DNA from: Edaphobacter lichenicola
Lineage (GTDB): Bacteria > Acidobacteriota > Terriglobia > Terriglobales > Acidobacteriaceae
Direction: 5' to 3'
Assembly: GCF_014201315.1 (NCBI RefSeq)
Contig: NZ_JACHDY010000001.1
Location: 248,001 to 312,000, forward strand
Length of the DNA stretch: 64,000 nucleotides
Under the pieces are notes generated by a model. The model did no database searches. It had not been told where the DNA came from and saw nothing but the letters and a program-made list of their open reading frames with translations. Of this stretch, positions 6,442-31,854 are shown one piece after another; positions within the stretch are counted from its first letter, which is position 1, and every line of letters starts with the position of its first letter. The translations under genes were made by a program, and so were the position numbers.

Positions 6442-6495
6442 AGCATAGCGAGTTGGTGCGGCGGAGCTTGTCACCAGGTTGTCAACGGACTGTCA
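6442..6495 (-). promoter_or_regulatory. NGACAN operator and promoter for the radical SAM operon
   Basis: On the reverse strand three half-sites, TGACAG (6495-6490), TGACAA (6484-6479) and TGACAA (6473-6468), lie at an exact 11-bp pitch. A -10-like TATGCT occupies 6447-6442, its start 26 bp after the start of the last half-site, against 25 bp in most sister sites. The start of transcription would fall near 6435, just ahead of the GTG at 6416. It is one of eleven copies of the same arrangement in this window. Confidence 0.7.
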
Positions 6496-6627
6496 TCTTG
6501 TTACCTGCCAAGAAAACGCGCTCTGCCAGACACGCAACTTAAAACTGACAAGGCACAAGAATTATCGGCGATGGAACGGCACTTAACGGTATAGCTACTC
6601 GTTCAAATGCACCTCCGTTAAGAATGG

Positions 6628-6666
6628 CAACAATCGAATGACCCCGAAATGACGGCGGGGTGACAA
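6628..6666 (+). promoter_or_regulatory. NGACAN operator upstream of the GT87 fusion gene
   Basis: Four units at 11-bp pitch read CAACAA (6628), TGACCC (6639), TGACGG (6650) and TGACAA (6661). The order closely resembles the array at 21931. At the expected distance the -10 position holds only a poor match (AAGCAT, 6687-6692). If it is used, transcription would begin almost at the GTG at 6698, implying a leaderless mRNA. The half-sites are clear; the promoter is uncertain. Confidence 0.55.
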
Positions 6667-6697
6667 TCACAGAGCGGCTATTGAGCAAGCATGAGAT

Positions 6698-8803
6698 GTG
6701 ACCGCACTTTCGGACGATCGTATTCTGCACTGGCTTGAGAGGGGTCTCCTCGTCATCCTATTGCTCTATCTGGGAGCACACACCCTGCCACGTGCATGGG
6801 GAAAGCTGAATACCGATTTCCCAAACTACTACCTGTCTGCGAAACTGGCGCATGAGGGGTACGATACTAGCCGCATGTATGAGTGGGCCTGGCTACAGCG
6901 CGAAAAGGATCATCGTGCTCTGGACGTTCGTGTAATTGGGATGTTGCCCATAACGCCGATATCTACTTTGACTATGTGGCCACTGACGCGGTTCTCACCG
7001 CTTACGGCAAAACGTTTGTGGGTGCTGCTGAATCTTGGGTTGCTAGTCCCCCTCTGCTGGCTGTTGCGCTCTCTAACCGGCTTGTCCTATCAGCGGATCG
7101 CACTTGTCTTCACACTAAGCTTCCCTTTGCATCGAAACCTGCTGTATGGCCAGTTCTATTTACTTTTGCTATTACTGATTGTGGCTGCATGCTGGGCATA
7201 CCTACACAAGAAAGATACGCTTGCCGGTTCCCTGATCGCAGTCGCAGCAGCCTGCAAAGTATTTCCGATCTTTTTCTTTGTCTTTTTCGTGCAGCGCAAG
7301 GCTTGGCGCGCCCTCACTGCGGGTGCGCTCACCGGGCTAGCAACTCTCGCGACATCTGTCTCGATCTTCGGCTGGAACGTACATCGCACCTATCTCCAGG
7401 AAATTCTTCCATGGACTCTGCATGGGGAAGGTCTGCCACCATATGCAACAGCCAGTGGTTCCATCTCGAGCGTTCTGCATTACCTCTTACTCGATGAACC
7501 GCAGTGGAATCCGCATCCTTGGCACCACTCCCCATTTTGGTATGCCATTCTGCAACCGACCTTGCAAATAGCACTGTTGGCGCCAGCGATTCTGCTCATG
7601 CGAGGGAAGGGTCGAGCCCCTCACCGGACACAACTGGAGTGGTCGGCGCTGCTGGTGGCTTCCCTTGCTATCTCCACCATACCGGCTTCATATAATTTCG
7701 TTCTCCTCGTTTTTCCTGTATGTGTGTTGACAGCAATATTGCTGGAGCGAAAGAGATATAGATGGCTTCTGGTTTTATCCATCGTCTACTTGGGTATTGG
7801 GCTACCCCTACCGGGCCCAGGCAGTGTGATAGGTCCAGCAGTCCTGCTGTATATCCCTCGGTTGCCATTGATGCTTGCGCTGCTACTGGGAACTTATATG
7901 CTGTTACGTTCCGAACGGTTGGTCCCGAGTTCATCACGCAGCAGCTGGACGCAATACGTGTGGGTCGCGGCGATGACCGCTGCGGTTATGTTCAGCGTGC
8001 ATTACACTCTCGAACGGGAACGGGCCGTCCGTCAAGAGTACGCTTACCGGCTACCGCTCCAGACTCAAGTTCTGCTTGCTGCCAGCCCTGAATTAGCAAG
8101 TAAGGGAATCAGATATCTGGCATTCACTTCGGCGGGATATCACCTTGAGGGCACGGCGGACGCGATAGGAAGCGATCCCACGATGAGCGATGAGCTCTCG
8201 TTTGCCACCAGTGCAAAGGGTCTATGGGCCGAGGAGGCTCTTAACCCAGAGTCACGAATCATCGAGCGAGGAGATTCTTCGCATGTGATAGTGGAGAACG
8301 CGCGTGAGCCAATGCTCTCAGCCGATCAAGCGAGCCTGGCTTTTGTTCGTGATTACCATGGTCGCGGCACTTTATTCGTTCGAAGAAACTTCCAGTCCCA
8401 GACGGCATCGGATGTGGTACTTACACCTCCGTCGCTCAACTTATATGAGGCATCTTTCCTTTCCGAGCACGAGTATGTGTTTTCTGCGGTGAAGGGACAT
8501 CACCCACCTGGAATCTACTTAAGCGACGCTTTACATAGCAACACGCCGCTCGATCTGGGTGAGGCGCGATATCCGGCGCTTTCTCCAGACGGGCGCTGGA
8601 TGGCATACAGCCACTTCGATCGAGGCGCTTGGAACCTATGGATTCGAAATCAACAAACCGGCGAAACGAGACGCATTGCGGATGTTCCCTGTAATCAAAT
8701 TGAGCCAAGTTGGGAGACCGACTCGAAGACTCTGCTTTACAGCACCGATTGCGGTCGCAGTCTATGGTTTACCGCGGTAGCACGTAGACGCGTCGTTCCA
8801 TGA
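6698..8803 (+). CDS. GT87-like polytopic glycosyltransferase fused to a beta-propeller domain
   Basis: The protein has 701 aa with a GTG start. The first 400 residues are a polytopic membrane region with an N-terminal FPNYYLSAKLAHEGYDTSRMYEW stretch split around an acidic loop, then LLYGQFYLLLLLLIVAACWA and many further hydrophobic segments. This resembles the GT-C/DUF2029 (GT87) mannosyltransferase family, which uses polyprenyl-phosphate sugars on the periplasmic side. After the last membrane segment (about 405-430), the rest is predicted periplasmic and contains PD40/TolB-like repeats such as YPALSPDGRWMAYSHFDRG and EPSWETDSKTLLYSTD. The fusion is unusual. The ribA gene follows 45 bp after its stop and is probably cotranscribed. 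Confidence 0.7.
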   Translation: MTALSDDRILHWLERGLLVILLLYLGAHTLPRAWGKLNTDFPNYYLSAKLAHEGYDTSRMYEWAWLQREKDHRALDVRVIGMLPITPISTLTMWPLTRFSPLTAKRLWVLLNLGLLVPLCWLLRSLTGLSYQRIALVFTLSFPLHRNLLYGQFYLLLLLLIVAACWAYLHKKDTLAGSLIAVAAACKVFPIFFFVFFVQRKAWRALTAGALTGLATLATSVSIFGWNVHRTYLQEILPWTLHGEGLPPYATASGSISSVLHYLLLDEPQWNPHPWHHSPFWYAILQPTLQIALLAPAILLMRGKGRAPHRTQLEWSALLVASLAISTIPASYNFVLLVFPVCVLTAILLERKRYRWLLVLSIVYLGIGLPLPGPGSVIGPAVLLYIPRLPLMLALLLGTYMLLRSERLVPSSSRSSWTQYVWVAAMTAAVMFSVHYTLERERAVRQEYAYRLPLQTQVLLAASPELASKGIRYLAFTSAGYHLEGTADAIGSDPTMSDELSFATSAKGLWAEEALNPESRIIERGDSSHVIVENAREPMLSADQASLAFVRDYHGRGTLFVRRNFQSQTASDVVLTPPSLNLYEASFLSEHEYVFSAVKGHHPPGIYLSDALHSNTPLDLGEARYPALSPDGRWMAYSHFDRGAWNLWIRNQQTGETRRIADVPCNQIEPSWETDSKTLLYSTDCGRSLWFTAVARRRVVP

Positions 8804-8835
8804 AGACGTCCACTAGTGGATCAGCCTTCAATAGC

Positions 8836-8842
8836 AAAGGAG
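8836..8842 (+). promoter_or_regulatory. Shine-Dalgarno AAAGGAG deciding the ribA start
   Basis: AAAGGAG lies 6 nt before an in-frame TTG at 8849. An upstream GTG at 8816 in the same frame has no ribosome-binding site of comparable quality, so the TTG is the more likely start. Confidence 0.6.
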
Positions 8843-8848
8843 ATCCCA

Positions 8849-9490
8849 TTGTCACTGATAGAGCTAAAGCAGATCGCCCAAGTGGAGTTCCCAACCCGGT
8901 GGACCGATTTCCATCTGCTAGCTTTCGAGGGAACGTACACGAGTCCAGGCAAAAAGGAGAAGCGTGTACAAACAGCGCTCGCCCTCATCGCGGGTAACCT
9001 TTACCACGATGCTCCTGTGGTCCGTATTCATTCTCAATGCGCCACAGGAGATGTTTTCCATTCTCTCCGGTGCGACTGCCACGACCAGCTTCATCTTGCG
9101 TTGCGCACGATTGCGGAGCTAGGTACAGGGATACTACTGTACGAGCACCAGGAAGGGCGGGGAATAGGCCTCATGGAGAAGTTGAAAGCCTATGAGCTAC
9201 AGGATCAGGGTCTCGACACAATTGAAGCAAATCTCCGTCTAGGCCACGCAATCGATCATCGTGACTATCAGCTACCGGTAGACATTCTCCGTTCGCTGAA
9301 CATTCGGAGGGTCCGTCTGATGACCAACAACCCAGAAAAGATCCGGGCAGTTACATTATCAGGAATCCATATTGTCGAACGTTTAAATGCTGAAGTTCCG
9401 ATCGATCCCCACTGTGCGGACTACGTTGCCACCAAACGAGAAAAGCTAGGTCATCTCTCGACGCACCCTGCTGCGAGCCTAATAAGCTAA
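8849..9490 (+). CDS. ribA: GTP cyclohydrolase II
   Basis: From the TTG start the protein has 213 aa, close to stand-alone RibA enzymes (about 200 aa). It converts GTP to 2,5-diamino-6-ribosylamino-pyrimidinone phosphate, formate and pyrophosphate in the first step of riboflavin synthesis. The zinc ligands are visible as C-x10-C-x-C in SQCATGDVFHSLRCDCHD. The EHQEGRGIGL motif and the LMTNNPEK C-terminal motif are intact. There is no fused RibB domain. Its place behind the GT87 fusion, away from other rib genes, suggests a second copy or recruitment to supply flavin or a pterin-like precursor to this locus; a flavin-reductase-like gene lies next to it. Confidence 0.92.
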   Translation: MSLIELKQIAQVEFPTRWTDFHLLAFEGTYTSPGKKEKRVQTALALIAGNLYHDAPVVRIHSQCATGDVFHSLRCDCHDQLHLALRTIAELGTGILLYEHQEGRGIGLMEKLKAYELQDQGLDTIEANLRLGHAIDHRDYQLPVDILRSLNIRRVRLMTNNPEKIRAVTLSGIHIVERLNAEVPIDPHCADYVATKREKLGHLSTHPAASLIS

Positions 9491-15894: not shown

Positions 15895-15947
15895 AGGATA
15901 TGGTCGGTGCTGCTATCGTTTGTCATCGAGTTGTCACTTCATTGTCT
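15895..15947 (-). promoter_or_regulatory. NGACAN operator and promoter for the PhyH-ABC operon
   Basis: On the reverse strand the half-sites AGACAA (15947), TGACAA (15936) and TGACAA (15925) are spaced exactly 11 bp apart. The -10-like TATCCT starts at 15900, 25 bp after the start of the last half-site. Transcription would start near 15888, leaving an 85-nt leader before the PhyH gene. Confidence 0.75.
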
Positions 15948-16023
15948 CTTTGGATCTACATGCATCGTGAGGTATGCCAGCCTGCCGATCGAATCGGATC
16001 CCAACTTGCCCATGCATAAGCCT

Positions 16024-16088
16024 CGACAATGCAATGAAGACATTTAGACAATCTCGCGACAAGTAGAAAATACCCAGACGTATACCTT
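16024..16088 (+). promoter_or_regulatory. NGACAN operator and promoter for the second sugar O-methyltransferase
   Basis: Four units at 11-bp pitch read CGACAA (16024), TGAAGA (16035), AGACAA (16046) and CGACAA (16057). The -10 region is TATACCTT at 16081-16088, where the hexamer could start 24 to 26 bp after the last half-site. The predicted transcription start near 16094 agrees with use of the ATG at 16181. Confidence 0.6.
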
Positions 16089-16180
16089 GGGAAAGAGGCT
16101 GCGAATTGAGAATCGACCAGGGGATAAAGGAAGCTGTGAGCGTCTGCCCATCATCTCGAGCCTGCCGACCAATCTGCTAC

Positions 16181-17404
16181 ATGAATGTCAATATGAAATT
16201 AGCTTCGAAGTATCTACGAAATCCGGTTCAAACGCTGAGATCCGCCGGCCTCAGGTGGCGGACGGCGTGGGCAAATCGCGAGCTTCTATACCGGGGCGGT
16301 CATCACTTCAAAGGTGATCCGCGATACGATCTTGATGGCGTCACTCGCGGGTTTAGGGATCGCATCGGCGACAACAGCTCCGATCGGCCATTGCTGCAAA
16401 GGATTTGCAGGGCCTACTCCCTGGCAATGAGCCGAGAACAGGCCGCATCGACGAAATACGATCCAACCCCTTGGTGGCAGCAACACCGCGATCTCACACT
16501 TGAGCCTGTCATGCGGGCTTTGGCTTCGCACGACCTCGATACATTGCAGAAGATGTACGAGAACTTCTTCCGCGATGATTGTTCAACGGGGCTGCTCCCC
16601 GTGCAAAGGGTGAAAAACAACTATTTCGGTCATGTCATTGCCGACTTCTACCGCCGTCTGTATTTAGTCGATGCCCTCTATCGCCTGGACTATTGGAAGG
16701 CGGAGACAAGCGGCTGTTATACGGTTGGCGATCTGGCTGGCCCGGCGACCGGAAACCCCTTCGGCGTTGCTCTGGGGGATACCCTTGTCAGAGTAGGCTC
16801 CGAGTACCAGCACTACTGTGCGCAGAGAATTGCCCAGCTTCTGCACGGTCACGCCACGATCGCCGAGATCGGCGGGGGGTTCGGTGGAATGGCATATTAT
16901 CTTCTTCGCGATCGCCCAGGAACAACTTACATTGATTTCGATGTGCCAGAAAGCATATCTCTCACATCGTATTACCTGCTGAAAAACTTTCCGCATCTCA
17001 AGATTGTTTTGTACGGAGAGGCAGAGTTGACCTCCGATACGATCCGGCAGGCCGACATCGTCCTAATGCCATTAGTCGAGCTTGCGCATCTGCCGAACGA
17101 CATAGTCGACCTTAGCTTCAGCTCACATGCCATGTCAGATCTCGCACCGGAAGTCATGCCCGAGTACTTATGCGACATCGCCCGGATCACACGAAATCAT
17201 TTTCTCTATGTAGGAACCGAAATCTCCGCAGCGAGAATTGTGGATTTCTCCGAAGCTATGCCTAGCCAATTCATATTGTTGGAGTCGCGTCAGTCCGGCT
17301 GGAATCGTCATATCGCGCCCAACGCTGGTCATGTGGAATGTATCTACCAAGTTAGTTGTTCAACTTCACCCATATGTTGGGACAAAGAAGTGACAAATCG
17401 GTAA
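16181..17404 (+). CDS. Putative sugar O-methyltransferase (copy 2)
   Basis: From the ATG at 16181 the protein has 407 aa. It parallels copy 1 along its whole length: the FKGDPRYDLDGV N-terminal motif, NNYFGHVIADFYRRLYLV with LYRLDYWK, TGNPFGVALG, and the SAM loop AEIGGGFGGMAYYLL followed by DFDVPESISLTSYYLL. Both copies keep the SAM-binding glycine run, so both are probably active. They are transcribed divergently from neighbouring operators, which suggests duplication followed by split expression or different methylation positions. The last half-site of the next operator overlaps its stop codon. Confidence 0.78.
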   Translation: MNVNMKLASKYLRNPVQTLRSAGLRWRTAWANRELLYRGGHHFKGDPRYDLDGVTRGFRDRIGDNSSDRPLLQRICRAYSLAMSREQAASTKYDPTPWWQQHRDLTLEPVMRALASHDLDTLQKMYENFFRDDCSTGLLPVQRVKNNYFGHVIADFYRRLYLVDALYRLDYWKAETSGCYTVGDLAGPATGNPFGVALGDTLVRVGSEYQHYCAQRIAQLLHGHATIAEIGGGFGGMAYYLLRDRPGTTYIDFDVPESISLTSYYLLKNFPHLKIVLYGEAELTSDTIRQADIVLMPLVELAHLPNDIVDLSFSSHAMSDLAPEVMPEYLCDIARITRNHFLYVGTEISAARIVDFSEAMPSQFILLESRQSGWNRHIAPNAGHVECIYQVSCSTSPICWDKEVTNR

Positions 17405-17432
17405 CAACACGCAAAAAGACTCTGTTCATAAT
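17380..17432 (+). promoter_or_regulatory. NGACAN operator and promoter for the micro-ORF/HprK-like kinase operon
   Basis: Half-sites GGACAA (17380), TGACAA (17391) and TAACAA (17402) are at 11-bp pitch, the last overlapping the TAA stop of the upstream gene. The -10-like CATAAT sits at 17427-17432, exactly 25 bp after the start of the last half-site. The predicted start near 17439 lies 17 nt before a micro-ORF and about 118 nt before the kinase gene. Confidence 0.75.
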
Positions 17433-19113: not shown

Positions 19114-20177
19114 TATTGTTTTCCTTTCCAGGCCGGGAAGAGGAACCGATATACGATTCCGGTCTCCCAGATGTTGACATTTCCGCTGGACGAGAACTGT
19201 CGCGAATAGCTTGTGAGAATTCTCGTATTGTGCGGTAGGTTATAGTCCAGGCCGAAGTCTGCACGCTGTGTGTTGACGGCTGGCAAACTATCGCTCGCTA
19301 CGCTGTCGATTCGAAACGTCTGCTGAATACGAAAGATAGGCTCCAGTCGGCCGATCCAGCTATTAAGTCCCCCGAAGTTTGTGGGTCGATAATCAGCTTC
19401 CACCCAATAGCCCTGTGCGTGCTGACCCCGAGCCCACTCTGAACGCAAACGAAAAGCACTATCCTTGGGTTCCCACCAGACATGCGTTCCGTAGAAGTTC
19501 TCTTGAGTGCCTTGCAAAAGCCGACCATAAGAAAAACCTACTTCCAGACGTTTCTCCGGCAGATAAAGGCTCACCCGTCCACCGGAGGAGCGTTTTGAAT
19601 TAAACTGTTCGTTCCCACTGCGCGTAGAGAAGTATGCAGCATAGTCAATGGAGAAGTTATGCCGTGAGATTGCGGATCCTCGCAACTGACCGCCGAGACC
19701 AACTCCTGTGGTCATAACTCCTAGCGTCTGGATCAATGGTCCGTCCTGAAGATTATTGATCCAGATTGGAGATAGGCGTTCGTTGTAGGTTCCGAATGGG
19801 GTCAAGAAACTCCCGCCCACAACGGTCACATGCGGAGAAACAATGTAATCGCCCTGAAGATAGGTCAACCCAATGAAATGACTGTGGTCGTAGCCGGACT
19901 GACCGTCAGCTTTCGGTGTAAAGTCCTCGAGCAGCGTCGCTCGAGACTCGATAAGAAAGTGATCTCCGATTGGTGCGGCTAACACGGGCGAAATGATCGG
20001 CAAATAGCTTGTACGGCCCGCAGTGGTATTCGTAAAGAAACCAACGCCACCGGAGATTAACGGCGTGTCCTGGGCATTCCCGTACTGTGTAGCGAAGAGT
20101 ACGGCCACACTAAATAGGAGCGGTCTCGCAGACCATAGTGATTTGAAAAAACGGAAATCTCGTCGGGGGCACGGCAT
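19113..20177 (-). CDS. Outer-membrane beta-barrel (porin-like) protein
   Basis: From the ATG at 20177 the protein has 354 aa with a signal peptide ending near QYGNAQ. The mature part is rich in alternating polar and aromatic strands (FSIDYAAYFSTRSG, VSLYLPEKRLEVGFSYGR, WVEADYRPTNFGG) and loops typical of a 14- to 18-strand barrel. No named porin family is recognised. A GTG at 20195 would extend it, but the predicted -10 box lies at 20190-20185, so translation probably starts at 20177 on a nearly leaderless transcript. It is coupled to the small cytochrome c gene downstream. Confidence 0.7.
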   Translation of the reverse strand: MPCPRRDFRFFKSLWSARPLLFSVAVLFATQYGNAQDTPLISGGVGFFTNTTAGRTSYLPIISPVLAAPIGDHFLIESRATLLEDFTPKADGQSGYDHSHFIGLTYLQGDYIVSPHVTVVGGSFLTPFGTYNERLSPIWINNLQDGPLIQTLGVMTTGVGLGGQLRGSAISRHNFSIDYAAYFSTRSGNEQFNSKRSSGGRVSLYLPEKRLEVGFSYGRLLQGTQENFYGTHVWWEPKDSAFRLRSEWARGQHAQGYWVEADYRPTNFGGLNSWIGRLEPIFRIQQTFRIDSVASDSLPAVNTQRADFGLDYNLPHNTRILTSYSRQFSSSGNVNIWETGIVYRFLFPAWKGKQ

Positions 20178-20184
20178 AGATGCA

Positions 20185-20248
20185 ACTGTAGTCACGTCTC
20201 CAACCGGATGTGTCTCATGCTCGTATGTCCTTTGTCAAAGGTTTGTCA
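20185..20248 (-). promoter_or_regulatory. NGACAN operator and promoter for the porin-cytochrome operon
   Basis: Reverse-strand half-sites are TGACAA (20248), TGACAA (20237), ATACGA (20226) and AGACAC (20215), all at 11-bp pitch. The -10-like TACAGT begins at 20190, exactly 25 bp after the start of the last unit, and is identical to the hexamer used by the opposing promoter. The start of transcription would be near 20178, at the ATG itself. Confidence 0.7.
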
Positions 20249-20376
20249 CGCAACATCAAGCGAAATCTTCTGACGTACCCACCGGTGTATAGGCCCAACG
20301 GGCTCGACCTTGGACGTGTTCGTATTCACTGATCTGTATGTCCGGCAATCGAAGCCAATTGGCACGATGCAAAAAG

Positions 20377-20429
20377 TGACAATTGGTTTACAGCCTTATG
20401 ACAAACGTCCACAGAATCTTTCCTACAGT
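20377..20429 (+). promoter_or_regulatory. NGACAN operator and promoter for the nucleotidyltransferase gene
   Basis: Half-sites TGACAA (20377), TTACAG (20388) and TGACAA (20399) are at 11-bp pitch, and the -10-like TACAGT lies at 20424-20429, 25 bp from the last unit's start. Transcription would start near 20436, five bases before one candidate ATG (20441) and 65 before the one preferred here (20501). Confidence 0.75.
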
Positions 20430-21930: not shown

Positions 21931-21994
21931 CAACAAAAGAGTGACAATTCACTGACGCACGCATGACATCGCAGTTGTGTTACTTCGCTAGGGT
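21931..21994 (+). promoter_or_regulatory. Distal NGACAN operator and promoter of the EPS export operon
   Basis: Units CAACAA (21931), TGACAA (21942), TGACGC (21953) and TGACAT (21964) are at 11-bp pitch. The -10-like TAGGGT occupies 21989-21994, 25 bp from the last unit's start. The predicted start near 22001 is about 300 nt from the first gene. Confidence 0.7.
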
Positions 21995-22213: not shown

Positions 22214-22277
22214 AGACAAGAGATTGACATTTGCCTTACGAAGGCATGACACCGCACCGGTTCGAGTTCTTTACGTT
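22214..22277 (+). promoter_or_regulatory. Proximal NGACAN operator and promoter of the EPS export operon
   Basis: Units AGACAA (22214), TGACAT (22225), TTACGA (22236) and TGACAC (22247) are at 11-bp pitch. The -10-like TACGTT lies at 22272-22277, 25 bp from the last unit's start. Transcription would start near 22284, 14 nt before the ATG at 22298. Confidence 0.7.
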
Positions 22278-22297: not shown

Positions 22298-25200
22298 ATG
22301 CTGATATCTTCCAGGCCATTCCGCATTCTCAAGCTAATTCGAATCACACCCTCGCTTGAGACTGCCTACCGCGGTCGTATGTCGCGTTCGCACGCGGTTG
22401 CGGCAAGCGGCTTATTGGCACTTACGGTGATGCTGGGTCAGTCTTCACAGGCGCAAGGAGTGTTCTCACCTCCGCAGAGTACGACCCAATCTCCCTCAAC
22501 TCCAGGCCCAGGTCTAGGAGCTCCGGAGCAATCCCAAAGTGACGGATCGCAGGACGATAAAAGCAGCTCCTCAAGCAGCCTCGCCGTTCCGGCTACTCTT
22601 TCCTCGAACCAAATCATCCATATCCTGCAGCAGAATCCCGATCTGGTTGTGGAGTTGAAGTCGCAAGTAGCCGATCGCCTCCAACAGCAGGGGACGCCGA
22701 TCGATGCCAACGATATCTCCGACCAGATGCTCTATAGCCAGATCGCAACAAACAGCGATCTGCGCGCGAACATCACGATGTTTCTTCGCGCAAGAGGGTA
22801 CGTTTCACAGGACGATCTCCAAAGTTTGGGCTCCAATTCAAATATTGAAACCACGGAAGGCAGTGACCTGACCGGACAAGAAGGCAGTGGACTAGCAGGT
22901 CAATCTCCTGTGTCGGCTGGACTTGATACTGCCAGGCTTGCTGCAGCTGGTCTCTCTTCGCCCGATCAAATCGATGCTACGGACCGCGCAACTCAGTTGA
23001 TAGGCCCGGCCGCCAATCAGTCCTCCAGCGAACAGAAGCGTGGCCATGAACCGGTGAATGCCTCCACTGACCCACCGAAGGTTCTACGCCAGCCTGCTCC
23101 TTATAACCTGCAATCGATGCGTGATTTATATACGCAGATCCCCGAACAGACTGTCCCACTCAAGCGCTTCGGTTCAGATGTATTTGTCAATCGCAACGTC
23201 TCCGCGATGGCTCGTGGCGGGGCTGGTCGGGACACCCCTCTGGATGTGCCACTGGGTCCCGACTACGTGATCGGCGCGGGTGACACACTCACGATCAACA
23301 TGTGGGGTGGCATGACACAGAGTGTGAATCGAGTCATCGACCGCGACGGTCGCATCTTGTTGCCTGAGGCGGGCTCGCTGGACTTGGCCGGGCTTTCGCT
23401 CGATCGTGCGGAGAGCCTGATTGACAACGCACTTAAGAAACAATATCGAGATGTTAAGGTTACCGTGACCGTGTCGCGCCTTCGCTCCGTGCGAGTGTAC
23501 GTTGTGGGCGATGTGCAGCGGCCCGGCGGGTATGACATCAGTTCTCTGGCAACTCCGTTAAGTGCACTCTATCTCGCGGGTGGCCCGACCGCGGCCGGGT
23601 CGCTTCGGATGGTGCGTCATCTACGCGGAGAGCAGCTCGTTGAGAATATAGATCTCTACGACTTTCTGCTGCATGGAATCCGCGCCAAGGGCGCCCGTTT
23701 CGAGAGTGGTGACACCTTGCTGATACCGCCTGTAGGACCACAGGTTGCGGTCTCAGGCGCGGTCAAGCGGCCCGCGATCTATGAATTGAAGCCGGACGAA
23801 TCGACGTTGGACCTGGCCATCAGCGATGCAGGCGGTCTTACTGCGGCAGCCTCTCTTGGGAACATCACGATCGAAAGAATCGATATCAATCGACAACGCG
23901 AGACTGTCACGCTTAAGACTTCTGCGGCCGGAACTGCTGACGCCGACCGTGCCACCATTGCCGCGTTCCAGATCCGGGATGGTGATCGCATTCGGATTGC
24001 GCCTATTCTGCCCTATAGTCAGCGAGCGATTTATCTTGAGGGGCACGTCGTTCGCCCAGGAAGGCGTTCGTACAGTGACGGCATGCGTCTCAGTGACGTT
24101 TTGCACAGTTACCAGGACTTGTTGCCGGAGCCGTCGCCTGTAGGGGAGATTATCCGCCTCGTACCACCCGATCTCCACGCAGAGACCATCAACTTCAATG
24201 TGCCGGATGTGCTCATCGGGAACAGCAATCTCGAGCTTCAGACATTCGATACGATTCGCATTCTGGGTCGATACCAAGCGGATGCCCCAAAGGTGACGAT
24301 TCAGGGCGAGGTACTGCGACCATCTACTTACCCATTGTCCGATGGCATGACGGCTGCACAACTCGTCCGTATGGCCGGTGGATTCAAACGCGACGCCATG
24401 CTCGATGAGGCGGATCTTACAAGCTACGGCGTGGCGAATGGAACTCGAGTCACGGGAAATCTTGTTAACGTTCACATCGGCGCGGCTGTGGCGGGGACTG
24501 AGCCGGGCGCAGACGTTCCGCTTAAACCAGGAGACATCCTCACCATTCACCAGATCACGGGATGGAATGACATCGGTCAGTCGGTACAGATCGAAGGGCA
24601 GGTCGCTTATCCCGGTACGTACGGCTTTCGGGAGGGAGAGCGTCTCAGCTCAGTGCTGCGTCGCGCTGGCGGATTCCGCGAGACGGCATATCCAGCGGGC
24701 GCAGTCCTTGTTCGTGAACAGGTGCGCGAACTCGAACAGAAGAGCCGCGAGGAACTGATTCGACAGATTGAGACGAGCTCGGCTTCGGCACGTCTTTCAC
24801 CGAATCTAGGCGCTGGCGACTCCGGAGCAACGCTGAAGTTGATCCAGGCGCAACAAGATCAGGTGCTGGCCCGCTTGAAGAGCGAGCCCCCGACAGGTCG
24901 TCTTGTGGTCCATATCACCGCGGACATCGATAGCTGGGCGAACACCGCTGTTGACATCGAAATGCGCCGCGGCGATGTGTTGACGATTCCTAAACGTCCC
25001 GGATTTGTTCTGATTACCGGTCAGGTATATAACGCCACGGCACTGACCTTCGCACCAGGAAAGACTGCGAGCTGGTATCTGCAGCATGCCGGTGGCACGA
25101 GTGATACGGCGAACCGAAAAGAGATCCTCGTGATCCGTGCCAATGGCTCAGTCATTGGTCGGCATTCGGGCGGTCTGTTCGATCCTTCTGTCCTCTCCAC

Positions 25201-25333
25201 ACGGCTTGGCCCTGGTGACGTGGTGGTCGTACCGCAGAAAGTGCTTGGGGCCTCTCTCTTCTGGAAAAATCTCCTCACTGCTGCACAACTCGCGTCGTCG
25301 ATTGCCATCACCGCAGCCGTAGCGAATATCTAA
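22298..25333 (+). CDS. Large polysaccharide export protein with multiple SLBB domains (Wza-like)
   Basis: The protein has 1011 aa, more than twice the length of classical Wza. A long N-terminal signal region contains AVAASGLLALTVMLGQSSQAQ; an internal ATG at 22379 is an alternative start. About 270 residues of Gln/Ser-rich low-complexity sequence precede the poly-export domain (DYVIGAGDTLTINMWG, RDGRILLPEAG). SLBB units follow, for example VYVVGDVQRPGGYDISSLA, VAVSGAVKRPAIYELKPDES, IYLEGHVVRPGRRSY, VTIQGEVLRPSTYPLSDG and VQIEGQVAYPGTYGFREGE. The protein ends with a hydrophobic segment (AAQLASSIAITAAVANI). It would form the outer-membrane exit channel for the polymer made by this locus. Confidence 0.9.
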   Translation: MLISSRPFRILKLIRITPSLETAYRGRMSRSHAVAASGLLALTVMLGQSSQAQGVFSPPQSTTQSPSTPGPGLGAPEQSQSDGSQDDKSSSSSSLAVPATLSSNQIIHILQQNPDLVVELKSQVADRLQQQGTPIDANDISDQMLYSQIATNSDLRANITMFLRARGYVSQDDLQSLGSNSNIETTEGSDLTGQEGSGLAGQSPVSAGLDTARLAAAGLSSPDQIDATDRATQLIGPAANQSSSEQKRGHEPVNASTDPPKVLRQPAPYNLQSMRDLYTQIPEQTVPLKRFGSDVFVNRNVSAMARGGAGRDTPLDVPLGPDYVIGAGDTLTINMWGGMTQSVNRVIDRDGRILLPEAGSLDLAGLSLDRAESLIDNALKKQYRDVKVTVTVSRLRSVRVYVVGDVQRPGGYDISSLATPLSALYLAGGPTAAGSLRMVRHLRGEQLVENIDLYDFLLHGIRAKGARFESGDTLLIPPVGPQVAVSGAVKRPAIYELKPDESTLDLAISDAGGLTAAASLGNITIERIDINRQRETVTLKTSAAGTADADRATIAAFQIRDGDRIRIAPILPYSQRAIYLEGHVVRPGRRSYSDGMRLSDVLHSYQDLLPEPSPVGEIIRLVPPDLHAETINFNVPDVLIGNSNLELQTFDTIRILGRYQADAPKVTIQGEVLRPSTYPLSDGMTAAQLVRMAGGFKRDAMLDEADLTSYGVANGTRVTGNLVNVHIGAAVAGTEPGADVPLKPGDILTIHQITGWNDIGQSVQIEGQVAYPGTYGFREGERLSSVLRRAGGFRETAYPAGAVLVREQVRELEQKSREELIRQIETSSASARLSPNLGAGDSGATLKLIQAQQDQVLARLKSEPPTGRLVVHITADIDSWANTAVDIEMRRGDVLTIPKRPGFVLITGQVYNATALTFAPGKTASWYLQHAGGTSDTANRKEILVIRANGSVIGRHSGGLFDPSVLSTRLGPGDVVVVPQKVLGASLFWKNLLTAAQLASSIAITAAVANI

Positions 25334-25456
25334 GGTCGCTATGGTCGCACCACTCAGCGTACTGGACCCTGACACTTCTATGCCGAACGGGACACTTCAA
25401 GGCACAACCAATCCGGGCAGTAAGCAACAACACCGCTCCCTGCCGAGGGCAAGGAC

Positions 25457-26788
25457 ATGAGCGAAAGTGTCATGACACCATACGTGGAATCCGCTCCGGA
25501 GTTAGCAGCTTCAGCGCCTATGGATTGGCTTAGCCGCGCAAGACTGCTTTGGCAATACCGCCAGACGCTTGCGCGTGTCACGGCCGTTGCGCTCGTAGCA
25601 AGCCTCACGATCGCATTCCTGATTCCTAAGCGTTACAAGTCCATTGCGAGCATAATGCCTCCCGACCAACAGGGCTCAGGTGCGATGCTGCTGGCTGCGT
25701 TGGCCGGACACTCTGGTAGTTTGGGCAGTCTCGGTAGTCTGGGAAGCCTTGCCGGCGGCTTGCTCGGTGGGCACACCAACACTGCACTCTACGAGAGCCT
25801 GCTGGAAAGTGGGACTGTCCGGGGACGTCTCATCGATCGCTTCGACCTGCAAAAAGTCTACTGGTCGCGCTACCGCTTTACCGCTGCGAAACACCTGGCG
25901 AATATGACGAAGATCACGGACGACAAGAAGAGTGGCGTGATCACCATTGCGGTGCAAGACACCGACCCGGTACGGGCGCGTGATATGGCACAAGCCTATC
26001 TGGATGAATTGAATAATTTACTGACGCGGACGAGCTCGTCCTCCGCCCGGCAGGAACGCATCTTCATCGAGAGCCGCCTTCACTCGGTAGGGGCGGATCT
26101 CGAACAAGCCCAGCTTGAGTTGAGCGAGTTCTCTAGCAAGAACAGCACGATCGATATCAAAGAGCAGACACGTGGACTGGTCGAAGCAGGAGCAAGAGTG
26201 CAAGGTGAGTTGCTGGTTGAGCAATCAGGCCTTCAATCACTGCGTCAGATCTACGGTGATGGAAACGTGCGGGTTCGTGAGACCGAAGCGCGAATCGCAT
26301 CGCTGCAGCGCGATCTCCAGAAGATGACCGGGACTTCTGCTCCTCTGACTAAAGGCGACGCGACCGGCAGCCACGCGTCGGCGAACCCCAGCGATCAAGG
26401 CGAACTGTATCCGCCACTGAGACAGCTTCCCCGTCTCGCGGTTCCGTATGCCAACCTGTACCGCCGCGTACGAGTGCAGGAGGCCGTATTCGAACTGCTC
26501 ACACAGCAGTACGAGCTGGCTCGCATCGAAGAGGCGAAAACCATTCCAGTCGTCACAGTCATTGACTCTCCGGGAATACCAGAGAAGAAGTATTTTCCGC
26601 CTCGTCTCTTGCTGACCCTGTTGTGTACCTTCCTCGCGTTTGCGGCCACTTCAGCAATGATCGTGGTTCGTGAACATTGGCGTGCAGCCGACAGCCGCGA
26701 CCCGCGTAAAGAACTGGCGATTGAGGTTCTTTCGGTTATACGCAAACGCCTTTTCCGGATGTCCCGACGGGGGCACATTGTCGAATGA
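25457..26788 (+). CDS. Wzz-type chain-length determinant / polysaccharide co-polymerase
   Basis: The protein has 443 aa. An N-terminal membrane helix (VTAVALVASLTIAFLIP) is followed by KRYKSIASIMPP, the standard Wzz domain entry. A long coiled periplasmic region (about 180-330) and a C-terminal helix (LLLTLLCTFLAFAATSAMIVV) with the preceding PGIPEKKYFPPR proline motif complete the fold. There is no kinase domain, unlike the Wzc-type protein at 55.8 kb. It carries a GSLGSLGSLGSL repeat. It would control chain length in the inner membrane. Its stop overlaps the start of the flippase gene by 4 bp. Confidence 0.88.
   Translation: MSESVMTPYVESAPELAASAPMDWLSRARLLWQYRQTLARVTAVALVASLTIAFLIPKRYKSIASIMPPDQQGSGAMLLAALAGHSGSLGSLGSLGSLAGGLLGGHTNTALYESLLESGTVRGRLIDRFDLQKVYWSRYRFTAAKHLANMTKITDDKKSGVITIAVQDTDPVRARDMAQAYLDELNNLLTRTSSSSARQERIFIESRLHSVGADLEQAQLELSEFSSKNSTIDIKEQTRGLVEAGARVQGELLVEQSGLQSLRQIYGDGNVRVRETEARIASLQRDLQKMTGTSAPLTKGDATGSHASANPSDQGELYPPLRQLPRLAVPYANLYRRVRVQEAVFELLTQQYELARIEEAKTIPVVTVIDSPGIPEKKYFPPRLLLTLLCTFLAFAATSAMIVVREHWRAADSRDPRKELAIEVLSVIRKRLFRMSRRGHIVE
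25715..25750 (+). repeat. Four tandem Gly-Ser-Leu codon triplets
   Basis: Twelve codons encode four copies of Gly-Ser-Leu within the Wzz-like protein, just before a Gly-rich stretch ending LLGGHTN. The codons differ between units, so the repeat is kept at protein level and is not a recent slippage product. Confidence 0.7.
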
Positions 26789-28125
26789 AAAAACACCTCG
26801 TTAACGCCGTCTATGGAGTTCTCGACTACGGCTCATATCCGTTCGGGATGTTGCTGGTTGCACCCATCGTGCTGCACAAACTTGGTGCGGCAGAGTATGG
26901 GGTTTGGATGATCTCAACGGCGGTCGTCAGCGCTGGAGGCATCATCGCCTCGGGATTCTGTGACGCCAACATTCAGCGGGTTGCCATACTTCGAGGAATT
27001 GGCGCAACCGATTCGATGGTGAACTCTGTGCGTAGCATGCTGGGCATCAATCTAGTGCTTGGCATTGCGTTAGCGATTGCCTCCTGGATTGCGGCGCCGT
27101 ACGCTGCGCGTCATATCACGGTCGCATCTTTCACTCCGGTTCGGGAGTGTCTGATTTGCCTCCGCATAGCGAGCCTGCTGATCCTGGTGCGCGCTATCGA
27201 AAGCGTAAGTGTAAGCACGCAGCGCGCCTTTGAACAATATCGCGATGCAGTGCAGGTAAGCGTCGCGGTTAGACTCTTGACGCTTGCTGCAGCAGCTCTA
27301 CTCGTCCAATCTGGCCACAGTGTCATCTCCATTCTGACAGGCACCGCTGCATTCCTGATCTCGGGTACGTACCTTCAGTTTCGTCAACTCTGGCGCCTAC
27401 TCGGCAGGCCCTCCTTGTTGCCCGCCTTTCATTCCGGTGAGACGCGATCGCTGCTGCGGTTCGGCATCTTCGCTTGGGTGCAGGCTCTGGGTGGCATTAT
27501 CTTTGGACAGCTCGACCGACTGTTGCTTGGTGTCTATTTGGGTGCCGTGGCCCTCGCCCCTTACGCTTTGTGCATACAGTTTGCGCAGCCCATCTTTGGG
27601 CTAACTGCATCAGGACTCCACTTTCTGTTCCCCTATATCTCTGGACGGGCGGCTACAGTCTCCCGCGAAGAGTTGAAGCGAACAGTGTTGAAGGCATTCG
27701 CGTGCAATTTGCTGCTCGTTTCCGGTAGTGCGGCCATGCTACTTAGCTTCGGACCCAGGTTGATCAGGATCTGGGCGGGAGTGAGAGTGGCACAAAGTGC
27801 CGCCGCTATCCTTCCTCCGATTGTGATCGGTTCGGCCCTCATGGGCCTGGGTGTGACTGGCATCTACGCCATGCAGGCTCTGAGCCTATTCCGCATGGCG
27901 GCCTGCATCAGCCTTGGAGGCAGGGCAGTCATGTTGGTTGTGATGATCTACCTACTGCGCCATATGGGGATTGAAGGATTGGCGATTGCGCGAGTCGGGT
28001 ATGGCGCAATTGCTCTACTGGTGTATCTGCCTCTTGGCTACCAGCTAGGGATAGTACGCAAGAAGACGGTAGGGGCTTCATCTCTCGCAACAGCCTGCGA
28101 ACTTCATGAAGGGCCCCGTCTATGA
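26785..28125 (+). CDS. Wzx-type polysaccharide flippase
   Basis: The protein has 446 aa with about twelve hydrophobic segments. It starts with VYGVLDYGSYPFGMLLVAPIV and continues with KLGAAEYGVWMI, typical of the oligosaccharide flippase (MOP) family. It would move undecaprenyl-linked repeat units across the inner membrane. The ATGA overlaps on both sides (with the Wzz-like gene upstream and the glycosyltransferase downstream) show tight coupling in one operon. The internal segment FGIFAWVQALGGIIFGQLDRLLLG is the usual second-half repeat of such flippases. Confidence 0.88.
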   Translation: MKKHLVNAVYGVLDYGSYPFGMLLVAPIVLHKLGAAEYGVWMISTAVVSAGGIIASGFCDANIQRVAILRGIGATDSMVNSVRSMLGINLVLGIALAIASWIAAPYAARHITVASFTPVRECLICLRIASLLILVRAIESVSVSTQRAFEQYRDAVQVSVAVRLLTLAAAALLVQSGHSVISILTGTAAFLISGTYLQFRQLWRLLGRPSLLPAFHSGETRSLLRFGIFAWVQALGGIIFGQLDRLLLGVYLGAVALAPYALCIQFAQPIFGLTASGLHFLFPYISGRAATVSREELKRTVLKAFACNLLLVSGSAAMLLSFGPRLIRIWAGVRVAQSAAAILPPIVIGSALMGLGVTGIYAMQALSLFRMAACISLGGRAVMLVVMIYLLRHMGIEGLAIARVGYGAIALLVYLPLGYQLGIVRKKTVGASSLATACELHEGPRL

Positions 28126-29312
28126 AAATTCTCGTCGTCGCCGCCTCCTACTCGGCTAACATCTCTGGCCTTCAACGCCATGCCTTCAATATGGTGCGCT
28201 GTCTATTGCTTAATCCGGATATCACGGCGGTACACCTGGTTCTGGCCCCATGGCAGCGCAAGATGGCCGTGTCGGCCGGACTGGGTTCGGACCAGCGCCT
28301 TGCAATCCATTTTGAAGAGATGGACCGAGGGACCGTTGCTCGAAACCTGTGGTATTACAGAAAGCTTCCACAGCTTGTCTCCCGATTGAAACCCGATCTG
28401 GTTCATCTCACTTATCCGATGCCGGTCGATGCAGAGGCGATCGGATGTCCGACGGTGCTGACCTTGCACGATCTTTATCCGTACGAGATACCGAGAAACT
28501 TTGGACTGCATAAGGTCCTTTTCAACCGAGTGATTTTGCAGCACTGCCTCAATTCCGTCGATGCGATTGCCTGCGTGTCCGAGACGACGATGAATCGGCT
28601 GAAGCAGTATGCTTCGAGCAAGACCTATCAAAAGGCGACCCGTCTTTATAACTGCGTTGAGCCAGAACCCTTTTGTGCAACGCAATCTCCGCTTCCAGGA
28701 TGGCGGGGTGAACCATTTCTGCTTAGCGTTGCTCAGCATAGGCGGAACAAGAACATTCCTCTGCTCATCCGTGCATTCGATCGCTTGTTGCAGCAGAAGC
28801 AAATACAACCCTCGACGAAGCTGGTTGTGATCGGAATCAAAGGACCGGAAACCCATCTCATCGAAACGTTGGTGTCTCGGCGTGGTCTGCACAAAAGTGT
28901 GATCTTCCTGGAAGGGCTGGAAGAGATGGAGTTGCAATGGTGCTACTCGCGTTCTGAGGCCGTCGTGCTGCCGTCAGTGACAGAAGGTTTCGGTCTGCCT
29001 GTCGTGGAGGCGCTTCTCGCAGGCTGCCGCGTGGTCTGTTCAGACATCCCTGCGTTCCGCGAGGTCGGCGACCGGCATTGCGAGTTCATCGAGCTGCGAG
29101 AAGATGCCGAGGAAACTCTCGCGAGGGGGATCAGGGCGACATTAGATAATCCAGCCAAAGAGCCCGTGTCGCTTCCGCACCTCTCCGCAGAAGTTCTTGC
29201 GAACGAGTACGCGAGACTTTATCGCGGCTTGATACCCGCCGCCTCGATAGCAAAAAGCATGACCCGCAACTCTTCAATCCAACTGGCGGCCCCAGAAAGA
29301 CAGTCCCTATGA
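28122..29312 (+). CDS. Glycosyltransferase, GT4-like
   Basis: The protein has 396 aa with a GT-B fold. The N-terminal domain contains NISGLQRHAFNMVRCL and HLTYPMPVDAEAIGCPTVLTLHDLYPYEIP. The C-terminal nucleotide-sugar domain has FLLSVAQHRRNKNIPLLIRAF and the E-x7-E motif EGFGLPVVEALLAG. It would add a sugar to the lipid-linked repeat unit on the cytoplasmic face. It is the last gene of the SLBB-Wzz-Wzx-GT operon; a new promoter follows about 75 bp after its stop. There is only one glycosyltransferase of this type in the operon, so the repeat unit must also depend on others. Confidence 0.9.
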   Translation: MKILVVAASYSANISGLQRHAFNMVRCLLLNPDITAVHLVLAPWQRKMAVSAGLGSDQRLAIHFEEMDRGTVARNLWYYRKLPQLVSRLKPDLVHLTYPMPVDAEAIGCPTVLTLHDLYPYEIPRNFGLHKVLFNRVILQHCLNSVDAIACVSETTMNRLKQYASSKTYQKATRLYNCVEPEPFCATQSPLPGWRGEPFLLSVAQHRRNKNIPLLIRAFDRLLQQKQIQPSTKLVVIGIKGPETHLIETLVSRRGLHKSVIFLEGLEEMELQWCYSRSEAVVLPSVTEGFGLPVVEALLAGCRVVCSDIPAFREVGDRHCEFIELREDAEETLARGIRATLDNPAKEPVSLPHLSAEVLANEYARLYRGLIPAASIAKSMTRNSSIQLAAPERQSL

Positions 29313-29386: not shown

Positions 29387-29450
29387 AGACAGAATTTTGA
29401 CAATTGACTAACCGACACATGACAACTCGAGGCGATGAAATATCTACGGT
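29387..29450 (+). promoter_or_regulatory. NGACAN operator and promoter for the cupredoxin-cytochrome-ligase operon
   Basis: Units AGACAG (29387), TGACAA (29398), TAACCG (29409) and TGACAA (29420) are at 11-bp pitch. The -10-like TACGGT is at 29445-29450, 25 bp after the last unit's start. The leader to the cupredoxin ATG is about 96 nt. Confidence 0.75.
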
Positions 29451-29552
29451 ACGAAGAGAGCTGAGATATTCCGAACAAGCAAGTCCAGATACGTTGTGCG
29501 ATTGACAATTGCGCCCGGCTTCCACCAAACGGACGTAGCTAAAGGAGAGTAT

Positions 29553-29918
29553 ATGAAGAGAAATGTAACGTTGATGGGCACGTTGATCGCAGGTTTAATC
29601 GCAAGCGGCTTCCCGGGCCACGTGGTCAAAGCGCAGGGAGCACCGCGTCAGGTGGAAGTTACCGCCAAGCGTTTTGCTTATGCTCCGGGTGAGATCACTC
29701 TAAAAAAGGGACAGCCTGTTGTACTAGTCATTAAGAGCGAAGATGTAGCTCATGGCCTCCGCTTTCGTGAACTAAACCTGAATGCTAAGGTCGACAAAGG
29801 TGGATCGGCCCAGTTGAGTTTCACCCCGGATAGAACCGGTGACTTCGTGGGGCATTGCTCTGTGTTTTGCGGCTCCGGTCATGGCGCGATGACCTTGACA
29901 TTGCATGTGGTGGAGTAG
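29553..29918 (+). CDS. Secreted CuA-type cupredoxin (COX2-like)
   Basis: From the ATG at 29553, preceded by AAAGGAG at 29541-29547, the protein has 121 aa. A signal peptide ending near VVKAQG precedes one cupredoxin domain. The ligand set matches the binuclear CuA site of cytochrome oxidase subunit II: His67 (DVAHGLRF), Cys102, Cys106, His110 and Met113 in HCSVFCGSGHGAM. There is no transmembrane hairpin and no oxidase subunit I nearby, so this is a free soluble CuA protein. The next gene encodes a cytochrome c lipoprotein 2 bp downstream, a likely electron partner. Confidence 0.85.
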   Translation: MKRNVTLMGTLIAGLIASGFPGHVVKAQGAPRQVEVTAKRFAYAPGEITLKKGQPVVLVIKSEDVAHGLRFRELNLNAKVDKGGSAQLSFTPDRTGDFVGHCSVFCGSGHGAMTLTLHVVE

Positions 29919-29920
29919 TC

Positions 29921-30391
29921 ATGCGGCCGCCTGCCGGAGTAATTGTCGCAGCGTTCGCGGCAGCGTTGACTGGATGTAAGGCGAGCCCTCCAGGCAAGAT
30001 CGAGATGGTGACTGTCACCTTCGCCAAGCACCACATCTTCATCCGCAACAGGAGTCAAAAGAATCCACTGGAGCCTAACGCTGCAACCTGGGCGGATGGC
30101 AAAGAGGCGTTCTCGCATTATTGCGTCGCTTGCCACGGTATGGATGGACAGAACACTGGAGTTCCATTCGCGAATCACATCTCACCACCCATCCCCTCCT
30201 TGGCTTCTGATGAGGTCCAGCGATACTCGGATGGTCAACTCAAAGAGGTTCTCGACAATGGAATCTGGCCGTCAGGCATGCCTGGTTCTAAGGGAACACT
30301 TAGCGATGATGAGCTCTGGGCAATCGTAGTGTTCATTCGCCATCTACCGCCAGCCGGGAGCCAAGGCATTCCAGAGATGTACAACCACTAA
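29921..30391 (+). CDS. Cytochrome c lipoprotein
   Basis: From the ATG at 29921 the protein has 156 aa. The lipobox LTGC places the lipidated Cys at residue 19. One heme motif CVACH (68-72) is followed by the class I distal ligand region SGMPGSKGTLSD (Met120) and a C-terminal helix DDELWAIVVFIRHLP. It would be anchored to a membrane in the periplasm and exchange electrons with the CuA protein encoded directly upstream. It is a normal-length cytochrome_CBB3-like domain. The O-antigen ligase gene follows 23 bp downstream. Confidence 0.87.
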   Translation: MRPPAGVIVAAFAAALTGCKASPPGKIEMVTVTFAKHHIFIRNRSQKNPLEPNAATWADGKEAFSHYCVACHGMDGQNTGVPFANHISPPIPSLASDEVQRYSDGQLKEVLDNGIWPSGMPGSKGTLSDDELWAIVVFIRHLPPAGSQGIPEMYNH

Positions 30392-30414
30392 GTCTTCAAC
30401 GAGACAAGTGAACA

Positions 30415-31734
30415 ATGGCAACCGCCGACAACTCGACCATCGCAGCACAACCACAGGTGTCGAAGTATTCAGCTTCGGCATTTTGCGTTGGGTTCTATTT
30501 TGCAATCCGCGTTGTTACGACTGTCTTCTTTGTCCGTATCCTGGGTACTGATCCCCAGGTGGGTGCCGCAACAAACTTGACTTTCAACTTCCTGCTGTTG
30601 GGCTTCATCTGGCTATCGACGCTGGGAACATCAAGTCGCGATTCCGCCTCCGTGCTGACGTTTGCGCAGATTCGATGGGTTCTCATCTTTCTCGGGTTTT
30701 CAGGTTGCAGTCTTCTGTGGAGTGAAACGGCGTCGCCATTGGCATCGGCTGCATACTGGTGTGGCACCGTATCTGATGTCGCGATTATTATCTTGCTGCT
30801 GCGCAATCGATCTGGAGTTGAGGCAGCGGATTCGTTGATGACGGGTTTCGTATGGGGCGGCTGCTCCATTGCCTTAGTAGCTTGGGTCATGCCGACGCAA
30901 TTTGATATGCGTCTTGGAGATGAAGACTATCTCAACGCAAATACAATCGGAAATCTCTGTGCGTTTGCCATCTTTTTCGCTCAATATCTCAGGACGTCTA
31001 AAAAAGCCCGTTGGGGACTTGCGATATTCTTCCTTGCAATTACAATTGTCCGGAGTCTCAGTAAGACGGCGATTGTCGCGTTCTTAATCAGCGAAGGCTA
31101 CCTCATCATCCACGACCGGGTCATGAATCGCCGAACCAAGACATACCTGACAATCGGCGTAGCCGTCGTTGTCCTTGTCTTCTGGGGCTTGTTCGAGGCG
31201 TATTACGACTTCTACACAACCTATGGCAATCAGTCTGAGACCCTGACGGGGCGCACCGCGATTTGGGCCTATGTAGTTGATGCGGCACTTGCAAAGCCTT
31301 GGATCGGTTATGGCTTCGATTCTATGTGGAAAGTAGTTCCTGCCTTCGGAGCCTTTGAAGCGCGGCACGCCGAGAATGAACTATTAGAACAACTCTACTC
31401 TTACGGAATCGCAGGCCTGGTTATACTCTGCGGCGTCTACGGGAGCCTCTATCGGAAGGTTCGCAAACTCGACGAAAGCCCGCTCCGGATCATCTTCGTC
31501 GGGATGCTGATGTTCGTCATCATCCGCGGCTTGGCTGAGGCCGAACCCTTTGATCTCTTGTTTCCACTGTGGGCTATCGTCTTAGTCACCTCACTCGTTA
31601 CTCGGAATGCCGTGGCCGGGCATCACATACATCCTCATCCACCCCAATCGGAACCGGTGTACGACTTTGGATCTAGATCAATCGCGGCCTGCGCAATCCA
31701 AATGAAGAGGGGAACGGCAGATTCATGCTCTTAA
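30415..31734 (+). CDS. O-antigen ligase / polymerase (Wzy-like) membrane protein
   Basis: The protein has 439 aa with about eleven hydrophobic segments. The characteristic region TLTGRTAIWAYVVDA followed by KPWIGYGFDS and a large periplasmic loop with RHAENELLEQLYSYG matches O-antigen ligase family proteins (Wzy_C), in which an Arg and a His act on the undecaprenyl-linked donor. It would polymerise or transfer the glycan in the periplasm. Its position behind a CuA protein and a cytochrome c under one promoter is unexpected and ties polymer formation to these redox proteins. Confidence 0.87.
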   Translation: MATADNSTIAAQPQVSKYSASAFCVGFYFAIRVVTTVFFVRILGTDPQVGAATNLTFNFLLLGFIWLSTLGTSSRDSASVLTFAQIRWVLIFLGFSGCSLLWSETASPLASAAYWCGTVSDVAIIILLLRNRSGVEAADSLMTGFVWGGCSIALVAWVMPTQFDMRLGDEDYLNANTIGNLCAFAIFFAQYLRTSKKARWGLAIFFLAITIVRSLSKTAIVAFLISEGYLIIHDRVMNRRTKTYLTIGVAVVVLVFWGLFEAYYDFYTTYGNQSETLTGRTAIWAYVVDAALAKPWIGYGFDSMWKVVPAFGAFEARHAENELLEQLYSYGIAGLVILCGVYGSLYRKVRKLDESPLRIIFVGMLMFVIIRGLAEAEPFDLLFPLWAIVLVTSLVTRNAVAGHHIHPHPPQSEPVYDFGSRSIAACAIQMKRGTADSCS

Positions 31735-31769
31735 CTCACTCATTACAGAGCGAGAATCTTCTGCCGGAA

Positions 31770-31786
31770 TTGTCATCTGATTGTCA
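31770..31786. promoter_or_regulatory. Reversed-orientation NGACAN site upstream of the response regulator
   Basis: Two half-sites TTGTCA (31770-31775 and 31781-31786) are at 11-bp pitch. Read on the plus strand the site resembles a two-repeat Pho box. Its orientation relative to the downstream gene is opposite to all other sites here, and no -10 box stands at the usual distance in either direction. It may serve autoregulation, for example repression or weak activation. Confidence 0.55.
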
Positions 31787-31854
31787 TTTGTGCCGCCTGG
31801 CGCTTCAGTTCTCGGTGCCGGTCGACGAGAATAAACTAGAGAGGTCCAAAAATC

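Follow-up and report, generated by a model that had tools for sequence, protein, structure and literature searches.

What joins the radical SAM, methyltransferase, polysaccharide export and redox genes that stand close together in Edaphobacter lichenicola, and which protein would control them? The genes lie in a 64,000-nt stretch of contig NZ_JACHDY010000001.1 (assembly GCF_014201315.1, positions 248,001-312,000), here called the window and numbered from its first base. An earlier note on this DNA had pointed to eleven intergenic operators built of TGACAA-like half-sites at a pitch of 11 bp, and had proposed that they define a regulon of radical SAM, methyltransferase, export, exopolysaccharide and redox genes. 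We argue that the arrays are probably operators for an OmpR/PhoB-type response regulator whose gene lies at 31855..32595 (plus strand), that its likely partner, the sensor histidine kinase encoded at 32567..34459 (plus strand), would phosphorylate it, and that the bound regulator would activate nine predicted operons; we put the probability of this reading at about 0.85.

All eleven sites were read letter by letter. Ten of them consist of three or four TGACAA-like units at a pitch of exactly 11 bp, with the consensus nRACAA-N5-TGACAA-N5-TGACn-N5-TGACAA (up to four half-sites) on the strand of the downstream gene, and they precede nine predicted operons, the Wza gene having two arrays. The eleventh, which belongs to the promoter of the regulator gene, is built of only two units pointing away from that gene, and therefore falls outside the array class, though it is conserved. 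The arrays are intergenic in general, as had been stated; the one at 17369-17407 overlaps the 3' end of the preceding open reading frame (ORF; stop at 17404), so the word is not strictly true there.

With up to two mismatches allowed in 15 bases, the two strands of the window contain eight TGACA triplets at a pitch of 11 bp and none at pitches of 8, 9, 10, 12, 13, 14 or 15 bp; arrays 16024 and 20210 are too diverged for this limit. A 39-bp matrix built from the ten window sites and scored by leaving one out gave at least 19 for eight sites and 11.8 and 7.4 for the remaining two, the background maximum being 16.8 in 20 stretches sampled from the rest of the genome (400 kb of 4.88 Mb). The best matrix score in the part from 37 to 64 kb, where the earlier note had seen no arrays, is 10.1.

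The genome, of 4,880,565 bases, is divided among 15 contigs. It contains exact TGACA-N6-TGACA at 18 places (the reversed pattern at three), and five of the 18 fall inside the window. A genome-wide scan had been suggested as a check on enrichment, and the enrichment is there: a 39-position sequence model made from 47 sites (window and relatives), scored on 150 of 408 first-look candidates, gives 14 matches at E<=10, ten of which are the ten window arrays. Indeed, a 25-kb block, about 0.5% of the genome, holds all eight matches with E<0.1, that is, the best eight. Array 17369 is matched one unit out of register (E 0.36), and array 16024 has E 0.98; the four matches outside the block (C7:150204, C1:657419, C5:335694 and C1:835089) have E values of 0.34-1.07, and by the model alone the two weakest window arrays are indistinguishable from background. 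Taken together, the pitch controls, the sampled background and the whole-genome model scan rule out chance or base composition as the source of the arrays.

How do the arrays lie with respect to promoters? In the window, a weak TANNNT -10 box starts 20 or 21 bp past the array end, after a gap of 19 or 20 bp, in eight of the ten sites (binomial P ~2e-13 against the frequency at other offsets, an optimistic value since the sites are related). The spacing was surveyed in 91 arrays of score at least 20 from 35 regions, two regulator-promoter arrays being left out: TANNNT starts at offset 20 in 61, at 21 in 13 and at 19 in three, and every other offset from -5 to 59 has at most four. A hold-out set consisted of the 20 best model matches outside G000 and G001, from 14 genomes and with no contig in common with the model loci. 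All 20 have TANNNT at offset 20 or 21, and 19 stand before a homolog of a window gene. With transcription beginning about 7 bp past the -10 box, each array would span roughly -70 to -32, and the fixed spacing places the last half-site next to the -35 region. Presumably two regulator dimers would line up head to tail along one face of the DNA and bring in sigma70 RNA polymerase at promoters with a poor -35 contact.

Could the arrays instead be repressor sites, the regulator shutting the block off by covering the promoter? They end close to the -35 region, a position from which a bound protein might equally well keep polymerase out, and the sign of control cannot be read from sequence. However, the -10 boxes are weak and stand at one fixed spacing and on one strand, a pattern typical of activator-dependent promoters, and we therefore regard repression as unlikely.

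The case for the 31855 protein as the likely binder draws on several lines of evidence. The protein matches PF00072 (receiver, 92.5 bits) and, at its C terminus, the Trans_reg_C winged helix PF00486 (86.5 bits), both above cut-off; MtrA and RegX3 are its nearest solved structures (best, MtrA 2gwr, E 1.2e-46), and no NCBIfam model is above cut-off among 25 of 93 matches listed. Its likely partner, the kinase, has dCache_3, HAMP, HisKA and HATPase_c domains and would phosphorylate it. Two genes for exported proteins adjoin the pair, one porin-like (34440..36032, plus strand) and one cupredoxin-like (36032..36757, plus strand), each so named by eye and with no Pfam match, and the group of regulator, kinase, porin-like and cupredoxin-like genes is kept in most relatives mapped. 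The core of the recognition helix reads TRTVDN in 24 of 25 same-genus orthologs listed and TRIVDN in the remaining one.

The strongest indirect tie of the regulator to the motif is the site in its own promoter (31771..31786, minus strand), which reads TGTCA-N6-TGTCA in the direction of the gene, the reverse of the target arrays. With at least nine of ten bases required, the inverted site stands before 24 of 29 regulator homologs (same-strand pattern, 2/29) in a first set that leaves out one locus ending too early. In a second set it is found before 24 of 28 orthologs (same strand, 2/28; shuffles, 5/560). A search of this promoter for TANNNT at a fixed position found none; the one enriched feature is a conserved A-rich element, some 41 bp downstream of the site, and the distance from the site to the likely -10 region is greater here than at the targets. 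The inverted site probably reflects autoregulation, in which the shorter, inverted site, further upstream of the predicted promoter, would act on the regulator gene itself.

Does the link between regulator and arrays hold beyond this genome? The named relatives of the regulator belong to Edaphobacter, Granulicella and other Acidobacteriaceae, and in their gene maps the window gene families recur in other orders and orientations, with arrays before many of them. Orientation was surveyed in 35 regions, 20 of them picked around model matches, by asking for a mapped gene within 400 bp of each of 103 arrays: 51 are directed unambiguously at such a gene, 34 sit in the space between diverging genes, 12 are without a mapped gene and six point away from the only one, two of these six being regulator promoters (G028, G002) and one facing a RibB-like gene outside the query set. 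Thus the expectation that arrays would stand upstream of the same gene families in related genomes was borne out, even where the genes have moved. Regions with the regulator and no adjoining cluster (G020, G028, G015) each have at most one array above a score of 17. In G028 and G250, arrays and regulator share a contig at 3.34 versus 4.04-4.06 Mb and 2.54 versus 3.19-3.21 Mb, a distance of about 0.7 Mb, so that the link would act in trans.

Co-occurrence was scored in 200 genomes of the family, with the regulator called at E<=1e-70 (108 genomes) and with array counts that are lower bounds, given strict filters and limited candidates. An array at E<=0.05 is present in 72 of the 200, that is, in 64 of the 108 regulator-bearing genomes and 8 of the 92 others; the Fisher P value of 1.9e-14, like the binomial one above, is optimistic, since sites and genomes are related. 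The corresponding counts are 42/108 versus 1/92 at E<=0.01 and 26/108 versus 0/92 at E<=0.001. In other families of the order and class, 3 of 24 genomes have any match at E<=1 (best, 0.23). Genome scan, relatives and co-occurrence together support the regulon that the earlier note had proposed.

If OmpR/PhoB-class regulators recognize 11-nt direct repeat units (PMC4415409), could the main binder be another member of the class, the 31855 protein being merely a neighbor? The best candidate is the paralog C4:362602, which has a similar recognition helix. However, the strong co-occurrence was scored at a threshold that leaves this paralog out (E 5e-59), and the inverted site that precedes 31855 orthologs is not present before the two own-genome paralogs examined. 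We consider it improbable that another regulator is the main binder. A third idea, that the repeats are nothing but sigma70 -35 words of the usual kind (TTGACA) or that TGACA became common in promoters by chance, draws on the resemblance of TGACA to the -35 hexamer and on the position of the arrays just upstream of -10 boxes, but is scarcely credible considering the three or four copies at one pitch, the crowding of 10 of 14 model matches into one block, the 20 bp between the last TGACA and the -10 box where 17 is the usual -35 to -10 distance, and the confinement of the arrays to one gene set that tracks one regulator.

Several observations, besides the optimism of the P values, weigh against activation of the block by the 31855 regulator. 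At E<=0.05, 44 of the 108 regulator genomes have no array and 8 of the 92 others have one. The single-contig genome G023, which lacks the regulator (best homolog, 38% identical), has a good array at C1:984866-984899 (L107). The inverted site is absent from 5 of the 29 homologs of the first set and from 4 of the 28 of the second; one of these four, L117, is a truncated locus. Paralog C4:362602 is 45% identical to the 31855 protein and, with its similar recognition helix (TRTVDTHLVRLRQKLE), could share sites. Two window arrays depart from the promoter pattern: 6628 has no TANNNT box at offset 20 or 21, and 17369 has CATAAT at offset 20 (17427-17432, plus strand). Finally, the hold-out set was made of the strongest matches, so a lower rate of -10 boxes is to be expected for weak ones. 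As a separate observation, the G023 array has a -10 box at offset 21 and precedes a gene for an exported protein that resembles, by eye, the one behind an array of G035 (L099).

Which genes would the regulator activate? At the left end of the block, array 6468..6506 (minus strand; three clear units and a weak upstream one) precedes genes for three B12-binding radical SAM proteins and two methyltransferases (6446 down to 121). Its -10 box, TATGCT at 6442..6447 (minus strand, offset 21), overlaps the predicted ATG at 6446, and the true start is therefore probably downstream. Array 6628..6666 (plus strand) precedes genes for a GT87 protein with a propeller repeat and for GTP cyclohydrolase II (6698-9490). 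A single ORF, 6698-8803, fuses the GT87 glycosyltransferase domain to the TolB-like propeller repeat; the GTP cyclohydrolase II gene (8816-9490) is one of three copies in the genome. RibB-like genes, annotated by eye, have an array in two relatives (L091 5039; G003 22167), hinting, with GTP cyclohydrolase II, at a flavin-type precursor in the pathway.

Two arrays follow on opposite strands. Array 15920..15958 (minus strand; -10 box TATCCT at 15895-15900, minus strand) stands before PhyH, MsbA-like ABC transporter, NanM-like methyltransferase, DUF2306 and flavin-reductase-like genes (15803 down to 9618). Array 16024..16062 (plus strand; TACCTT at 16083-16088, plus strand), weaker than the other nine, precedes the gene for a second NanM-like methyltransferase, at 16106. 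Array 17369..17407 (plus strand) lies before an HprK-like gene at 17557.

The four-unit array 20210..20248 (minus strand) precedes two genes, one porin-like and one cytochrome c-like (20195 down to 18799). Around 20177-20190 (minus strand) its -10 box, TACAGT at 20185-20190, is followed 7 nt later by an ATG; the ORF start predicted at 20195 falls before that box. Among 17 sites before such pairs in the window and relatives, an ATG stands 6 or 7 nt past the -10 box in 13, a GTG at 6 nt in one, an ATG at 9 nt in two and something else in one; the mRNA of the pair is predicted to be leaderless.

The remaining arrays are all on the plus strand, each with its -10 box at offset 20. Array 20366..20404 (TACAGT) precedes the NTP_transf_5 gene at 20429. 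The best-scoring array, 21931..21969 (TAGGGT), is the first of two before the Wza/SLBB gene at 22298, and the four-unit array 22214..22252 (TACGTT) is the second, leading into the Wza-Wzz-Wzx-GT4 genes (22298-29312). A further four-unit array, 29387..29425 (TACGGT), stands before cupredoxin, cytochrome c and O-antigen-ligase-like genes (29496-31734). RES-domain and Xre/MbcA/ParS genes (36902-37777, minus strand), likely a toxin-antitoxin pair, are found where the block ends on the right.

By eye, the arrays here and in relatives (20210-20248; G003 22037; G001 28455; others) seem to fall into two classes. The form CAACAA-TGACAA-TnACn-TGACAA is often found at Wza, cupredoxin and NTP_transf_5 promoters, and TGACAA-TGACAA-AGACGA-AGACAC often at porin-like and PhyH promoters; the two may possibly mark graded affinity.

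What might such a regulon make? Poly_export, Wzz, Polysacc_synt_3, Glycos_transf_1 and Wzy_C matches are above Pfam cut-offs in the window, those of the flavin-reductase-like, HprK-like and first cytochrome c proteins being below. Export protein, Wzz, flippase, polymerase/ligase and glycosyltransferase are together, and the window thus holds a Wza/Wzx/Wzy-type polysaccharide export locus. Because the targets include Wza, Wzz, Wzx, Wzy-like proteins, glycosyltransferases, B12 radical SAM enzymes, methyltransferases and PhyH, the gene content suggests that the product would be a polysaccharide or glycoconjugate that is exported, methylated and modified in other ways, accompanied by redox carriers of the periplasm (cytochromes c, cupredoxins). 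For the porin-like protein 19113, the AlphaFold model has beta hairpins and a mean pLDDT (predicted local distance difference test) of 44.9, too poor for a fold search. This protein has a homolog in Granulicella sp. WH15, and no link to the cluster was found in the accessible parts of two papers on that strain (PMC7074687, PMC7315648).

How does the system compare with known ones? Tandem 11-nt direct repeats are known operators of OmpR/PhoB-type regulators, and the E. coli PHO box has two 11-nt direct repeat units with the motif CTGTCAT (PMC4415409). The arrays are direct-repeat operators of this already known kind. They share with the PhoB system the regulator type, the 11-nt repeat and the core, TGTCA being the reverse complement of TGACA; they differ in having up to four half-sites rather than two. 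Moreover, E. coli PHO boxes read TGTCA on the gene strand, whereas the target arrays here read TGACA. Identity of the regulator with PhoB was rejected (TIGR02154, 187.2 bits against a cut-off of 296.2), as was a Pho regulon: there is no model match near pstS (C1:789013, C1:1430353), the nearest being C1:835089 (E 1.07), and a different regulator is encoded at C1:791538, about 1.6 kb from one pstS gene.

PhoP of Bacillus subtilis and Streptomyces also uses tandem direct repeats of the 11-nt kind, but the half-site in S. coelicolor is GTTCACC (PMC4415409), and the target genes are others. MtrA of Mycobacterium (2gwr), the best sequence match among solved structures, has the same domain order; identity with it was rejected as well (NF040689, 193 bits against a cut-off of 300). 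Four-repeat operators and opposite-strand boxes occur with B. subtilis PhoP. In the XrtA/PEP-CTERM exopolysaccharide loci (PrsK/PrsR), the likeness lies in weak model matches of the export, chain-length, HprK-like and kinase proteins, but all of these are below curated cut-offs and the regulator here is of the OmpR/PhoB type. No description of this regulon was found among the open-licence papers listed, judged by titles and abstract openings. The system combines operators of up to four units, their fixed spacing to the -10 box and the inverted site at the regulator gene.

Perhaps this one two-component system defines a family-wide, previously undescribed pathway of the Acidobacteriaceae, a proposal that we offer tentatively and with considerable doubt. 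The cassette of operator plus -10 box would have been kept through gene reshuffling, so that the array alone would identify pathway members (RibB, further radical SAM enzymes, methyltransferases); at its own inverted site the regulator would act with the opposite sign; and the product would be an exported glycan, modified by a flavin precursor, radical SAM chemistry and methyl groups and coupled to a chain of cytochromes and cupredoxins.

Soils widely harbor Acidobacteriota, which are difficult to bring into culture (PMC7074687, PMC7661733). A single motif that can be read in any genome ties radical SAM, methyltransferase, polysaccharide export and redox genes into a probable pathway, which gene names would not do, and it supplies a candidate regulator, exact operators, predicted transcription starts and a route to further members from sequence alone.

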